From Patescibacteria group bacterium (GTDB lineage: Bacteria; Patescibacteriota; Microgenomatia; Woykebacterales; RBG-16-39-9b), in contig JACZRW010000005.1 of NCBI GenBank assembly GCA_022574495.1, positions 1 through 37,412 of the forward strand: a stretch of DNA of 37,412 nt, given 5' to 3'. Numbering within the stretch: the stretch's first letter is position 1; every line of letters starts with the position of its first letter. Under the pieces are notes generated by a model. That model ran no database searches. It saw only the letters and a program-made list of their open reading frames with translations, and was not told the origin of the DNA. Both the position numbers and the translations under genes were made by a program. Positions 6,081 through 12,463 of the stretch are shown here, piece after piece.

Positions 6081-6488
6081 TTAATTTAACAATTTTATCT
6101 TTGTAAAATGGCTCCTTAGCCTATTGTAGAGTTTTTTGTCGGCGGTGACAAAGCGGCAACGGAATTTCTCGGCTAAGCTAACGTAGGAGGAATCATAGGC
6201 AGAAATGTTAAATTTCTTAGCGAGATTCAGCGCATTTTTAAATTCATCGAAAGAAAAATTCACTATTTTTAAATCTAGATCGTGAAGGCTTTTCATTATT
6301 TTCAATCCTTCAGAAGCGGTAATGGCACTTTTAGTGGCCAGGACATTATTAACCTCGAAAAATAGCAGGCTTGGGGCAGATAAAACGTCCTTTCCCTCGA
6401 CATGAGAAGCCAAGTATTGACGAGCTTTTTCATTTTTGGCCTCAGGGATATACCACTTTAATACAACAGAGGAATCAACGACGATCAT
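6081..6488 (-). CDS. PIN-domain toxin, VapC family
   Basis: MIVVDSSVVLKWYIPE start; conserved acidic residues (FEVN, YDSSYVSLAE, VTADKKL). Confidence 0.88.
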   Translation of the reverse strand: MIVVDSSVVLKWYIPEAKNEKARQYLASHVEGKDVLSAPSLLFFEVNNVLATKSAITASEGLKIMKSLHDLDLKIVNFSFDEFKNALNLAKKFNISAYDSSYVSLAEKFRCRFVTADKKLYNRLRSHFTKIKLLN

Positions 6489-6792
6489 TATCGGTATCTT
6501 TCAAGATTTGTCCGGTTCTTTCTTCCCGCATTTTCCTAATAGTTTTTACTACATCCCAACCCGCGAGTTTCCCGCCGTATTTCCCTCGCCACTCATCAAT
6601 TTCTTGCGCGACCTTTCTTAAGCGGACTTTTCGTGACTCTTTAGAAATAGTTTCTTCATATTCTTCAACAGGAATAACAACCGCTAAGGGTTTAGATAGC
6701 CTTTCGATTAAATAGTGTTCTTTTTTCTTAGAAACTTCGTCTAAAATTGTTCCTAACCGGCTTCTTGCCTTCAAAGCACTGATTGTTTTCAT
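6475..6792 (-). CDS. Antitoxin, PhD/YefM-like
   Basis: MKTISALKARSRLGTILDEV...LIERLSKPLAVVIPVEEYE; overlaps the toxin start by 14 bp. Confidence 0.82.
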   Translation of the reverse strand: MKTISALKARSRLGTILDEVSKKKEHYLIERLSKPLAVVIPVEEYEETISKESRKVRLRKVAQEIDEWRGKYGGKLAGWDVVKTIRKMREERTGQILKDTDNDRR

Positions 6793-6841: not shown

Positions 6842-7150
6842 CTAAGTGATGAAGGTTTGGGCGAAATTAATTAATTCTTCCTTAGTAGGGGCTCGACCTT
6901 CAAAGGCTAAAACTTCTTCAGACTTAGGGTTTAAAAATGTTGGTGTGAAAAGATATTCAGGATCAAATCCAAGTTTCTTATTGTTTTCAATAATTTTATC
7001 TTGATATTCTGAAATTAGTCTCGTACCTTCAGGAGAAGTTATATTGTGTCTTTCAAATTCGTAACCTTCATTTTCTAGTTCTGTTAATATCGGCTTTACC
7101 GCTTCGCAATTATCACAATTAACTTTCCAAAGCTCAATTAATTTTTTCAT
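6842..7150 (-). CDS. Thioredoxin/glutaredoxin-like protein
   Basis: KVNCDNCEAVKPIL CxxC motif, TPTF cis-Pro motif. Confidence 0.75.
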   Translation of the reverse strand: MKKLIELWKVNCDNCEAVKPILTELENEGYEFERHNITSPEGTRLISEYQDKIIENNKKLGFDPEYLFTPTFLNPKSEEVLAFEGRAPTKEELINFAQTFIT

Positions 7151-7153
7151 TCT

Positions 7154-7933
7154 TTAGATAAATTTGAATATTGCATTACTAATATAAAATATTCCTACTA
7201 AAAACAATACCATTGCGGAGACTTTCTTTATTTTTGGAGTAGCCGCCGAGATACCTTTGGGTAAACCCTTTACGTACCCAGTGAGACCCATGAAGACAAA
7301 CATCAGAGAGGCCATAACTGCCCCAGCAATAGCAAAACTAGTGATAGCCGGCTGAAAACCACCGCTAGTAAGAGCAGCCAAAGTTAAACCACCCAGTATG
7401 GGTATAGTGCAGCCAGAGCCGGCTAAAGTATAGCCAAATCCGTAAAGAAAGGCGTTTTTAAGGCCTCCTCCGCCTGTAGTAGCTATCTTTGGTGTCAGCT
7501 TTTCCAGAAGACCAAAGTGGAATTTATCAGAAATTTGATTGTAGGCTAAATAGATTAATAAAACGCCAATCACACCACGAATTATCCGTAAATTATTCTG
7601 GAGGAGTTCTCCTAAGGGTTGGCCAATAAACGCAATCACAAGGCCAACCAGCAGAAGTAGAGTGAGTAATCCACTAGCACTAACCAATCCAATCATAACG
7701 GGGCTTGCTTTAGCGTTTGACTTTAAATTAGCCGTTACCGCGGCCGGTAAAAGGGGAAAGGCGCAGGGTGAAAAGAAGCTAGCTAACCCGGCTACCACCG
7801 CTAGAGGGAAAAGGGAAAGTAATAGCTGGTCTTTGTTCATAAACCCAAGAAAGATGAAATATCCTAAAATACCAACTATTGCTAGTGTAATTACAGATAA
7901 AACTAACTTAAATAATCCTTTTGACTCTTGCAT
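7154..7933 (-). CDS. CcdA/DsbD-family transmembrane thiol transporter
   Basis: Multiple TM segments, FFSPCAFPLLP and AGSGCTIPI motifs. Confidence 0.8.
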   Translation of the reverse strand: MQESKGLFKLVLSVITLAIVGILGYFIFLGFMNKDQLLLSLFPLAVVAGLASFFSPCAFPLLPAAVTANLKSNAKASPVMIGLVSASGLLTLLLLVGLVIAFIGQPLGELLQNNLRIIRGVIGVLLIYLAYNQISDKFHFGLLEKLTPKIATTGGGGLKNAFLYGFGYTLAGSGCTIPILGGLTLAALTSGGFQPAITSFAIAGAVMASLMFVFMGLTGYVKGLPKGISAATPKIKKVSAMVLFLVGIFYISNAIFKFI

Positions 7934-7967
7934 AAATCTCCTATTTTACTGTCAACAGTTTTAACCT

Positions 7968-9416
7968 TTATTCCACACAACAACTTAATTTAGAAACATC
8001 TCTAAAAAAGTTCTGGGCGGCTAGCTTTATACTTTCAGATAAGGTAGGAAAGACGTGGGTTGTATCAATCACTTCTTCCAAAGTCATCTTATTTCTGACA
8101 ATCATAGTCGCTTCATGGATTAAATCGGCTGCTTCTGGTCCAAGTATATGAATACCGACTATTTTGTGATTTTCTCTCTCGGCAACAATTTTAACCAACC
8201 CCCGCGTATCGTTTATGATGGCTGCTTTTGGTACCAGTTCAAAACTAAGGATATTGCAAGTGCATCGCAAGCCGCCGCCAATTGCTTCTGCGTCTGTCTT
8301 GCCAACTCCAGCTAGATTTGGCGTAGTGAAAACGGCGTAAGGCACCGCTGAATAGTCCATTTTCTTTTTCTTTCCTTCAAGAGCGTTTTCAGCCGCTATC
8401 TTACCTTCTTTACCAGCAGTGGTCTCTAGCCGCAGCGGTTTGTCCGTAACATCACCTACCGCCCAGATGTGGGAAGCCGTTGTTTGCATACCGTCATCTA
8501 CTTTAACGGCTCCATTTTCATTAACCTTTACTTCTACACTTTTTAAATCTAAGTCTTTTGTATTCGGTGTCTTACCAGCCGCAAACATCAGCACTTCGCC
8601 TTTTGCTTCTTGCTCCTTCCCATCTACCGCAAAAGTTACTATTACTTCACCATTTTCCTTCCTTACCTTTTTACTATTGGCGTTGGTGATTATCTTTATA
8701 CCCTCTTCCTCAAGGTAACCTTGCATAGCTTCCGAAAGTTCTGGCTCGGTTCTTGGCATAATCGCCTTGCTTCTTTGTAGAATAGTTATTTTAGTTCCGA
8801 AGTGGTGGTACATCTGCCCAAACTCTAGTCCAACTGGCCCCGCGCCAATAATCACCATTGATTTAGGTGGTTTCTTGAGTTTTAGGGCGTCTATGTGAGT
8901 GATGTAGTCAACCTTTTCAATACCCTCTAAGGGTAGAGGTAAAGCAGTAGAGCCAGTAGCAATAACAAACTTTTTTCCGTATAGCTTTTTGTCTCCGACA
9001 ACTACTTCGTTTTTTGAAACAAACTTTGCCCTGCCTTCAAGATGAGTAACATTTTCCAGATTGGACAGTACTTGTGTATATTTATCGTGCCTCATTTTAT
9101 CCACTAAGCCAAGTTCGTGTTTTATAGCTTTTTCAAAGTTTACCTCGAGCTTTCCAGAAATTGCATCAAAACCGTGGTTTCCGTAGTAAGCAATCTCACC
9201 AATTTTTAGTAAAATTTTACTTGGCACACAACCAACATTTACACAGGTACCACCAAGAGGCAACCCAGCATTAACTAAAGCGGTTTTTGCCCCCTTTTCA
9301 TTAGCAGTAATTGCTGCTGCGAAAGCACCCGCACCACCACCAAGAACTATTAAATCAAAGCTTCGACTTTGCTCAGCTTTGACCCTGAGTGTAATCGAAG
9401 GGTTAAACTTTTCCAT
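7968..9416 (-). CDS. merA: Mercury(II) reductase MerA
   Basis: GGTCVNVGCVPSK redox site, Rossmann GGGAGAFAAA and GAGPVGLEFGQ, C-terminal KLSCCVE vicinal cysteines; AGGAGG upstream of ATG. Confidence 0.92.
   Translation of the reverse strand: MEKFNPSITLRVKAEQSRSFDLIVLGGGAGAFAAAITANEKGAKTALVNAGLPLGGTCVNVGCVPSKILLKIGEIAYYGNHGFDAISGKLEVNFEKAIKHELGLVDKMRHDKYTQVLSNLENVTHLEGRAKFVSKNEVVVGDKKLYGKKFVIATGSTALPLPLEGIEKVDYITHIDALKLKKPPKSMVIIGAGPVGLEFGQMYHHFGTKITILQRSKAIMPRTEPELSEAMQGYLEEEGIKIITNANSKKVRKENGEVIVTFAVDGKEQEAKGEVLMFAAGKTPNTKDLDLKSVEVKVNENGAVKVDDGMQTTASHIWAVGDVTDKPLRLETTAGKEGKIAAENALEGKKKKMDYSAVPYAVFTTPNLAGVGKTDAEAIGGGLRCTCNILSFELVPKAAIINDTRGLVKIVAERENHKIVGIHILGPEAADLIHEATMIVRNKMTLEEVIDTTHVFPTLSESIKLAAQNFFRDVSKLSCCVE
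9361..9402. repeat. Palindromic REP-like repeat inside the 5' end of merA
   Basis: CTTCGACTTTGCTCAGCTTTGACCCTGAGTGTAATCGAAGG closely matches the reverse complement of the intergenic element near 30965-31005. Confidence 0.75.
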
Positions 9417-9453
9417 AAAAACCTCCTAATTCTATATGCCTTTCAGAAGACTT

Positions 9454-9549
9454 TTAATTATCTTCTTTAGTTTCTGTTTTTTGGTTGCAACAATTACAAC
9501 TGTGGTCTTCTTTTATTTTCTCCTCGATTTTCTTTTTTTCTTCGTCCAT
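9454..9549 (-). CDS. 31-aa small Cys-cluster protein, MDEEKKKIEEKIKEDHSCNCCNQKTETKEDN
   Basis: Below the size cut-off of the ORF track; GAGGAGGTGAATATA-ATG Shine-Dalgarno; sits between regulator and merA. Confidence 0.6.
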   Translation of the reverse strand: MDEEKKKIEEKIKEDHSCNCCNQKTETKEDN

Positions 9550-9575
9550 TATATTCACCTCCTCACCACATTTTT

Positions 9576-9683
9576 TTATAGATAAAAAGCATTTATTTGA
9601 AAATAAATCAAATAGACTCCAACCAAAACAAGTCCAGCTCCTAAACTAGATTTTGAAAGTTCCTTCTTCAGATGCCTGTCCAT
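9576..9683 (-). CDS. 35-aa single-TM small protein, MDRHLKKELSKSSLGAGLVLVGVYLIYFQINAFYL
   Basis: Starts 5 nt after the ArsR stop codon; basic N-terminus then one hydrophobic segment. Confidence 0.5.
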   Translation of the reverse strand: MDRHLKKELSKSSLGAGLVLVGVYLIYFQINAFYL

Positions 9684-9688
9684 AAAAC

Positions 9689-9991
9689 TTACAGAATTTG
9701 ACTCTTTAAAACTTCGTTAAAGGGTGATTTTGATAAGGAATAAAATATTGTTTGACCATTCCGACGGGTATCCACTAAGTCGACTCCTTTTAGCTTAGAC
9801 AGTGAGTGAGAGACAGCCGAAACTGAAATATCTAAAATCTTAGCAATATTAGAAACAGCTAATTCATCATAACTACAGAGTAGGTAGCAAATCTTTATCC
9901 TGGTTGGGTCGCCAACGACACCAAACTGAGCGGCACATTCTTCCAAGACAGCCTTATTTTTTAATTCTTTTTTTACTTTTACCAAATCCAT
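9689..9991 (-). CDS. ArsR/SmtB-family winged-helix metalloregulator
   Basis: GDPTRIKICYLL, NIAKILDISVSAVSHSLSKLKGVDLVDTRRNGQTIFYSL; several Cys residues. Confidence 0.88.
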   Translation of the reverse strand: MDLVKVKKELKNKAVLEECAAQFGVVGDPTRIKICYLLCSYDELAVSNIAKILDISVSAVSHSLSKLKGVDLVDTRRNGQTIFYSLSKSPFNEVLKSQIL

Positions 9992-10006
9992 AGTTATATA
10001 CTTCTA

Positions 10007-10028
10007 TATTTGAACAAGTATTCAAATA
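10007..10028. promoter_or_regulatory. Putative ArsR/SmtB operator
   Basis: TATTTGAACAAGTATTCAAATA: perfect 8-bp inverted repeat containing TGAACA-N2-TATTCA, just upstream of the regulator ATG. Confidence 0.75.
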
Positions 10029-10156
10029 CTATCAAGTGGGGTATTATTTGTCAACCATTAGAAAGTTTTGGATTTCATGGCTATCTTTGATAGACGTAAA
10101 ACATCAAACTTGTTCGATATTTTATCATTAAAGTAGAAGAGTATTAGCAACTGATT

Positions 10157-10270: not shown

Positions 10271-12463
10271 ATGCAAATTCGAAAACCCATATATTTCCTT
10301 ATCCTTCTGCCAATTTTCATCTTTCTAATCTTCCCTGTGGTGAGCTTGTCGAATCCATTGTTTGGCCAGGGAACACAAACCCCTTCTGCTACTACCAGCC
10401 AAGAATTTTTTAAAGCCCCTGAAAAATTTAACAAGGTTGACCGAAATAAAAATAAAATCATGGATCATCTGGAAGGATTGATAGGTCCGGCGGTAGCAAC
10501 AGATAGATTTGATGTGCTCGTAATGCTGAATAAACCACTCACTCTACTACCAACCCTCAAAGCTCGCCATGGCGATTTCATTACCAAGTTTGAATACTCC
10601 TCTATCAATGGCTTCGCTACCAATTTAACCAAAGGGCAAATTATTGCTTTATCAAAAGATGTAGATGTAAAGCTGGTAGAATTTGATGCTCTCGCCTTTC
10701 CTCATCTAGACAGTGCCCAAAATTGGTTTGGCACTGCCAAAGCCAGAGCCGATTTCTCCCTGGATGGAGATGCCGCCGGAGATGGAGCCAAGACTTATTC
10801 AAAAGACGATGTGGTGATTGCCATTTTAGATACCGGTATCGATCCAAACCACGTTGATTTGGATGGGGGTAAAATCATTGCCTGGCGAGACGCCACGATA
10901 AATAATGATCAGTCCGGCCCTTATGATGAGCTGGAGGACTGTGCCGGACATGGCAGTCATGTCTCTTCCATAGCGGCTGGTGAAGGAGACGGAGATGCAA
11001 ATTTTATAGGGGTAGCACCTGGAGCAGCTTTGGTTGGGGTGAAAGTTTTGAGTAACCGAGATGTTACAATCCAAAACCAAACAGTTGAATTATGTACCGC
11101 CGCAACTTCTGAAATTGTTTCTGGGGTTCAATGGATAATTGCTAATAAAGATACTTATGGTATAGACATCGGAAATATGAGTCTGGGTACTTCTGTATGT
11201 TCGGATGGAAATGATATGCTATCAACTGTTGTTAATTCAGCGGTTAATGCTGGCATTGCAATGTTTACCTCGGCAGGAAACTCTGGGCCGGGGCCATGCA
11301 CCATTGGTTCTCCAGCTGCTGCAGAAAAAGTGGTTACAGTCGGCGCAATGGCCGATGTAACTCCAATGACGACTTCAGTCAGCTTTGGATGTGGCCCAGC
11401 CCCTTTTCGGGGATTTTATTTGGTCTGCTTTTCTTCTAGAGGTGAGACTATAGATGGCAGGATAAAACCAGATATCGCTGCACCTGGTGTTTTTATAAAA
11501 GCCGCCTCTGCTTTTTCTGGAAATGATTATAAAACTTTTTCCGGAACGTCCATGGCTTCTCCATTTGCTGCCGGTGTTGCAGCTTTAATACTTGATGCCC
11601 ATCCAAACCACACTCCAGCTCAAGTGAAATCGACCATTGAAAGCACTGCTTCTGATTGGGGACCAGCCGGAAAAGACGTAGATTACGGGGCAGGAAGACT
11701 GCAAGCCTATGAAGCGATAAAATTAGCCGGGTCTTTCTCTGGGACCGGACCTATGGTTCCATCTCACACTTTCACAGCCGACTCTTTGTCCAATAGAAAT
11801 AGGCAAGATTCTTGGGATATTGTGGTAACAGACCCTTCCTTGCCTATTGCCATTACTATGATCATGCCAGACTGGGAGAGATTCGATAAACCAGATTTTG
11901 ATATGAGACTACGAGATCCAAACGGAACAGAAATCGCTACATCAATTAGCGCTACACGGCAAGAAACAATTGGTATCCAACCAGCCTTGGCTGGGATATA
12001 TCAATTAGAAGTCTACATTTTTAGAAGTAATGGTCCTTATTTCTTCGATGTTTCCTTTGGCGAAGCTGCTATTGCAATACTTCTGAATACAGATGGCACC
12101 ACTCCTTTTGGTGCTATTGCTCTTGGACAAACTATAGATACCACTGCCTCTGGAACAGATGATGTGCAAACCATACAAGTACTAGCTGGTCCAGCGGATC
12201 TAAATATTAAATCCACCAATTTTTCTGATGGAGCAAATACTTGGTTTTTAAATACTACAAATGGAGCCGACCAAGTGCTTTGGGAATTTTCAGAAGATGG
12301 GTTACTTTGGAATCCATTTACATCTTCCGGTACTTTGTTTCCCTATGGCAATGTTGCTCAAGGCGCCACAAAGGATATATACTTTAGGCTGACACTGCCA
12401 AATACAACTTCTAGTAATAAGGAGCATTCTGCCACGGTGACTATCGTAGCTACCGAACCATAA
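10271..12463 (+). CDS. Secreted subtilisin-like S8 serine protease with C-terminal beta domains
   Basis: Signal peptide; [40 protein letters not shown] catalytic motifs. Confidence 0.92.

Follow-up and report, generated by a model that had tools for sequence, protein, structure and literature searches.

A predicted ArsR-regulated merA operon with ccdA and thioredoxin-like genes in a Patescibacteria (CPR) genome

Mercury-resistance operons under ArsR regulation are known from Sulfolobus and Streptomyces (PMC3466566), and CPR MerA was earlier placed as sister to the MerA of Thermococci and Archaeoglobi (PMC8261052). In Actinobacteria, CcdA and TrxA proteins are listed as mercury transporters (PMC12195606). 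Our literature search on CcdA together with MerA returned annotation tables only, and metal transport by CcdA is an annotation in these sources, with no experiment found there. Plasmids pMYCCH.01 of Mycolicibacterium chubuense (L198) and pRB29 of Rhodococcus oxybenzonivorans (L193) combine an ArsR-type regulator, a small TM protein, a thioredoxin-like protein, CcdA and merA in one cluster. The plasmid mer loci of Streptomyces F12, Gordonia and Arthrobacter contain no annotated ccdA or trx, so the Actinobacterial link is not universal. The transporter label given in Actinobacteria and the known CPR MerA provide a precedent for the design of the operon described here.

The window analyzed was a stretch of 37,412 nucleotides from a contig of a Patescibacteria group bacterium (JACZRW010000005.1). 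It was found to hold the gene content arsR-trx-ccdA-merA, which in Actinobacteria occurs in one operon or divergon. An earlier note on this DNA had described a noncanonical mercury-resistance operon of six genes lacking MerR, MerT, MerP and MerC. All six ORFs were confirmed on the minus strand in the place and order given there (arsR, TM35, CxCC, merA, ccdA, trx), and the identities of arsR, merA, ccdA and trx are backed by family, profile or structure tests. The assignment of the organism to the CPR is based on the sequences that group with its MerA, on named Patescibacteria relatives and on a genome size of 0.94 Mb. The features are as follows.

10026 to 10054, minus strand: sigma-70-like promoter TTGACA-17-TAGTAT with extended TG, 10 of 12 consensus matches, assigned by consensus only
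10008 to 10027, no strand: predicted ArsR-type operator ATTTGAA-N6-TTCAAAT, a perfect palindrome
9689 to 9991, minus strand: ArsR/SmtB-family repressor, 100 aa (NF033788 score)
9576 to 9683, minus strand: 35-aa peptide (TM35) with a single hydrophobic, TM-like stretch (ORF; no family match)
9454 to 9549, minus strand: 31-aa CxCC peptide (ORF and Shine-Dalgarno; no family match)
7968 to 9416, minus strand: MerA mercuric reductase, 482 aa (TIGR02053)
7154 to 7933, minus strand: CcdA/DsbD-family membrane protein, 259 aa (profile comparison; Pfam silent)
6842 to 7150, minus strand: thioredoxin-fold protein (Trx), 102 aa (active-site motif and AF2 model)

The intergenic gaps from arsR to trx are 5, 26, 37, 34 and 3 nt, and one promoter-like site is predicted to precede all of these closely spaced genes. 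Purine-rich ribosome sites precede the CxCC peptide (the strong Shine-Dalgarno sequence GAGGAGGTG), merA (AGGAGG) and ccdA (AGGAG). TM35 and trx have no such site; the start signal of TM35 is weak, and this ORF is possibly not a gene, while trx begins 3 nt past the end of ccdA, a spacing compatible with translational coupling. A Phd-type antitoxin and PIN-domain toxin pair lies directly after trx on the minus strand (6081-6792). Since this pair has its own promoter-like site (TTGACA-16-TATATT, 6829-6802), trx is probably the last gene of the operon; no terminator-like site was seen behind it. On the other side, a gene for a large subtilase-family protease (10271-12463, plus strand) is divergent from the mer operon.

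The noncanonical content was borne out by family profile searches, in which none of MerR, MerT, MerP and MerC was found in the operon. Of the families that define a canonical mer operon (MerR with MerT, MerP, MerC, MerE or MerF), no member is encoded there, and the two MerR_1 genes of the genome lie elsewhere. HMA (MerP-type) domains were absent genome-wide in a search whose controls gave matches. The genome-wide MerT search gave zero matches, its controls being likewise silent.

The palindrome ATTTGAATACTTGTTCAAAT at 10008-10027 overlaps the -10 hexamer of the promoter. An exact match is present at a single place among the 935,484 bases of the genome, and with up to one mismatch 0.03 occurrences would be expected in the window. 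Of 24 merA loci, 16 (counting the window) carry the palindrome upstream of a homologous arsR gene with no more than one mismatch, and at 13 of these the match is exact. The regulator scored 74.6 bits against NF033788 (cut-off 55); this score and the palindrome at the promoter place it in the ArsR/SmtB family. Among its relatives Cys19 and Cys35 are kept in 14/14 and Cys39 in 13/14, and we infer that these three cysteines may form an Hg(II) sensor. An uncharacterized CPR mercury regulator now has a conserved operator and, in these cysteines, a candidate sensor site.

MerA scored 531 bits against TIGR02053 (curated cut-off 454). Following the catalytic-residue criteria of PMC3466566, alignments showed the CxxxxC redox pair (C58/C63), the C-terminal vicinal pair (C479/C480, in the ending SCCVE), Y113 as the Tyr264 equivalent and, at position 605, F456, an archaeal-type Phe; there is no NmerA domain. 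With this strong family membership, the protein would reduce Hg(II) with NAD(P)H, and ArsR-controlled detoxification by MerA is a well supported prediction. In a tree of 119 rows, the clade that holds the window MerA has full support and contains a further 35 sequences from CPR and 7 others; the window MerA lies there on a basal branch, beside Chloroflexota L096 and CPR L038/L039; on sequence, it belongs to the known CPR clade. MerA above the cut-off was found in 26 of 374 genomes of the class and in 8/380 of the phylum sample. For the contig search a single-sequence query gave no match and an alignment query was used instead. One CPR genome (G602) carries a decayed merA remnant (L187, 7926-8590), made up of the N-terminal part and an SCCI C-terminal fragment; an intact merA lies about 7 kb away.

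The window CcdA gave no Pfam match at E 0.01, and the gathering scores of PF02683 and PF13386 were not reached. Comparison with other CcdA proteins by hhalign gave 99.5% probability (E 5e-23), and Cys57 and Cys175, the PC-P/C-P family cysteines, are invariant in 9 aligned sequences; these conserved cysteines and the profile similarity assign it to the CcdA/DsbD family. They are the only two cysteines of the protein, which also has an extra N-terminal hydrophobic segment. Its AF2 model is poor (pLDDT 74.7), and Foldseek gave no significant match on such a model. A tblastn search on plasmids returned a single weak Natrinema match. Roseobacter plasmid CcdA matches (H104) were set aside: they lie in a copper cluster and not in a mer locus.

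For Trx, Pfam gave a weak lead. The AF2 model (pLDDT 91.6) matched PDB thioredoxins (E 3e-4, probability 1.0), and W8, C12, C15 and T69-P70 (the TP motif) are invariant, in agreement with a thioredoxin fold; ten homologues align at 41-54% identity. The active site reads WKVNCDNC, and no signal peptide was seen by inspection, which points to a cytosolic protein. Members of this family are present in 12 of the 374 genomes of the class, mostly beside DsbD-type/CcdA proteins and/or a dihydrolipoyl-dehydrogenase-like flavoprotein, with a small zinc-ribbon protein as another frequent neighbor; these neighborhoods are not specific to merA. The flavoprotein is missing from the present genome, where its sole full-length homologue is MerA (32% identity). 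The genome does encode a thioredoxin reductase (TIGR01292) and, separate from the operon, a housekeeping crp-trx-ccdA-tlpA set on contig 26. A conserved CPR cluster of ArsR-like regulator, DsbD-type protein, small thioredoxin, zinc-ribbon peptide and dihydrolipoyl-dehydrogenase-like flavoprotein was also observed (L183, L184, L185, L189 and relatives).

The earlier note had staked its redox reading on synteny of ccdA and trx with merA in relatives, and this was borne out in part. Most CPR merA loci consist of arsR-merA alone, with no adjoining ccdA or trx, but the linkage recurs far above chance. Among CPR loci, arsR-trx-ccdA-merA with overlapping genes is found at L038/L162, tlpA-ccdA-merA with a 21 nt gap at L104, and merA-crp-trx-ccdA-tlpA at L066, whose Trx is 48% identical to that of the window; at L074 and L083 a CcdA-family gene lies close to merA. 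Outside the CPR, Chloroflexota L096 has tlpA-ccdA-merA with a 77 nt gap, and the two Actinobacterial plasmids carry arsR-trx-ccdA beside merA. A same-strand CcdA gene lies within 1.5 kb of merA at 5 of 33 sampled CPR loci against about 0.1 expected, a rough figure taken from the genome-wide CcdA density, which Pfam undercounts; at three times that density P is still ~1e-5. MerA and a Trx of the window type co-occur in 6 genomes (0.8 expected), a count inflated by kinship: several of the six come from one family, and the genes are linked in three only. In three phyla, gene linkage connects mercury detoxification with a thiol-electron carrier and a thioredoxin.

Two further arrangements were seen at CPR loci. 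At L036 (6264-8942) and L084 (5076-7855), a DsbD_2/cupredoxin fusion and an HMA protein come after arsR-merA, giving CPR merA another membrane partner of the thiol families. At L064, an 81-aa thioredoxin-like ORF with a CTCC motif lies up to 700 nt upstream of merA.

The best explanation, to which we give about an even chance, is that the locus works as a detoxification operon, repressed by ArsR and induced by Hg(II), that also supplies a second cytosolic Trx-CcdA reductant pathway. ArsR would hold the operator over the promoter until Hg(II) bound to its conserved cysteines released it, and MerA would act in the cytosol, converting Hg(II) to Hg(0). The products of trx and ccdA would form a second, Hg-induced copy of the cytosolic Trx-to-CcdA pathway, with electrons passing from thioredoxin reductase to Trx, to the cysteine pair of CcdA and then presumably to extracytoplasmic thiol carriers, for example the TlpA encoded elsewhere in the genome. 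Such outward electrons would keep surface and carrier thiols reduced during Hg(II) exposure, while the CxCC peptide, a possible thiol or Hg(II) buffer, may hold Hg(II) for MerA. This explanation is favored by a MerA above its cut-off with all catalytic residues, by one promoter and a genome-unique operator common to other CPR arsR-merA loci, by the 3 nt spacing of ccdA and trx and the separate promoter-like site of the Phd/PIN pair, by the thioredoxin reductase and separate trx-ccdA-tlpA of the genome, and by a ccdA-merA linkage above expectation in CPR and present also in Chloroflexota and Actinobacteria. The redox relay of the earlier note holds up in that linkage and in the occurrence of the Trx family beside DsbD-type carriers and flavoprotein disulfide reductases; a position specifically beside merA was not borne out. 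Against the reductant pathway, most CPR merA loci manage without linked ccdA or trx, the operon encodes no extracytoplasmic acceptor, the partner Trx in L038, L096, L104 and Actinobacteria is apparently membrane-anchored or exported, unlike that of the window, and the kin-inflated co-occurrence of MerA and Trx comprises three linked cases only.

The sparse linkage would also suit the idea that ccdA-trx follows arsR-merA as a chance or general-stress neighbor and plays no part in mercury resistance, as would the many redox clusters that lie near metal genes in CPR genomes. We regard this as quite improbable given the tight co-directional packing and a recurrence in three phyla far above background. 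The chief rival to the reductant pathway, both being readings that we infer, is that CcdA is an Hg(II) importer, its intramembrane Cys pair taking outside Hg(II) by thiol exchange and passing it by way of the CxxC of Trx to the C-terminal cysteines of MerA; CcdA and Trx would then replace MerT/MerP and NmerA. A genome without an HMA protein, an operon without MerT, MerC or MerP and a MerA without NmerA would accord with this, as would the mercury-transporter label of the Actinobacterial CcdA and TrxA and the Cys pair at the C-termini of Actinobacterial mer CcdA proteins (DNDCCAPAP and ADDCCAPRP). The window CcdA, however, lacks a Cys-rich tail and has no cysteines beyond the redox pair, the Trx family also stands beside DsbD and flavoproteins away from merA, metal transport by CcdA rests on annotation in the sources, and at many CPR arsR-merA loci no importer of any kind is linked; we consider import by CcdA rather unlikely. 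The fuller proposal, an import-and-delivery relay through paired cysteines from CcdA to the cytosolic Trx (or the CxCC peptide) and then to MerA, appears unlikely as well; if true, Hg(II) import would have been solved a second time and independently, possibly already in the ancestor of the CPR/Chloroflexota MerA clade. The absence of the flavoprotein that adjoins Trx in most class relatives raises one more reading, in which MerA, its sole full-length homologue here, stands in as the electron source for Trx. With a true thioredoxin reductase in the genome, and with an active site and C-terminal Cys pair specialized for Hg(II), MerA is very improbable in this role. Whether CcdA in mer operons moves electrons out or Hg(II) in is now a testable question.

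The window CcdA shares the profile match and both family cysteines with the CcdA/DsbD thiol-electron transporters (PDB 5vkv) and differs from them in falling below Pfam detection, in its N-terminal hydrophobic segment and in its place in a mer operon. Like the CPR MerA of clades K12-K14 (Christakis 2021, PMC8261052), the window MerA is a CPR MerA near archaeal MerA, whereas the searched text of that paper names neither CcdA nor ArsR. In the units of L096, L038/L162 and L104, Trx, CcdA and MerA are contiguous as in the window (ccdA-merA gaps of -3 to 77 nt), and in the tree the MerA proteins of L096 and L038 share the basal part of the clade with that of the window. Their order is trx-ccdA-merA with a Trx that is apparently anchored or exported, whereas the window has merA-ccdA-trx and a cytosolic Trx. 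In the two Actinobacterial plasmids, merA is divergent and followed by merB, MerA falls in a different part of the tree, Trx is apparently exported and CcdA has a Cys-rich tail, in contrast to the leaderless Trx (by inspection) and two-cysteine CcdA of the window. All components of the operon are from known families, and their combination has named Actinobacterial parallels; new are the cytosolic Trx after merA-ccdA, the occurrence in CPR, the shared CPR operator and the recurrence of the linkage in three phyla.
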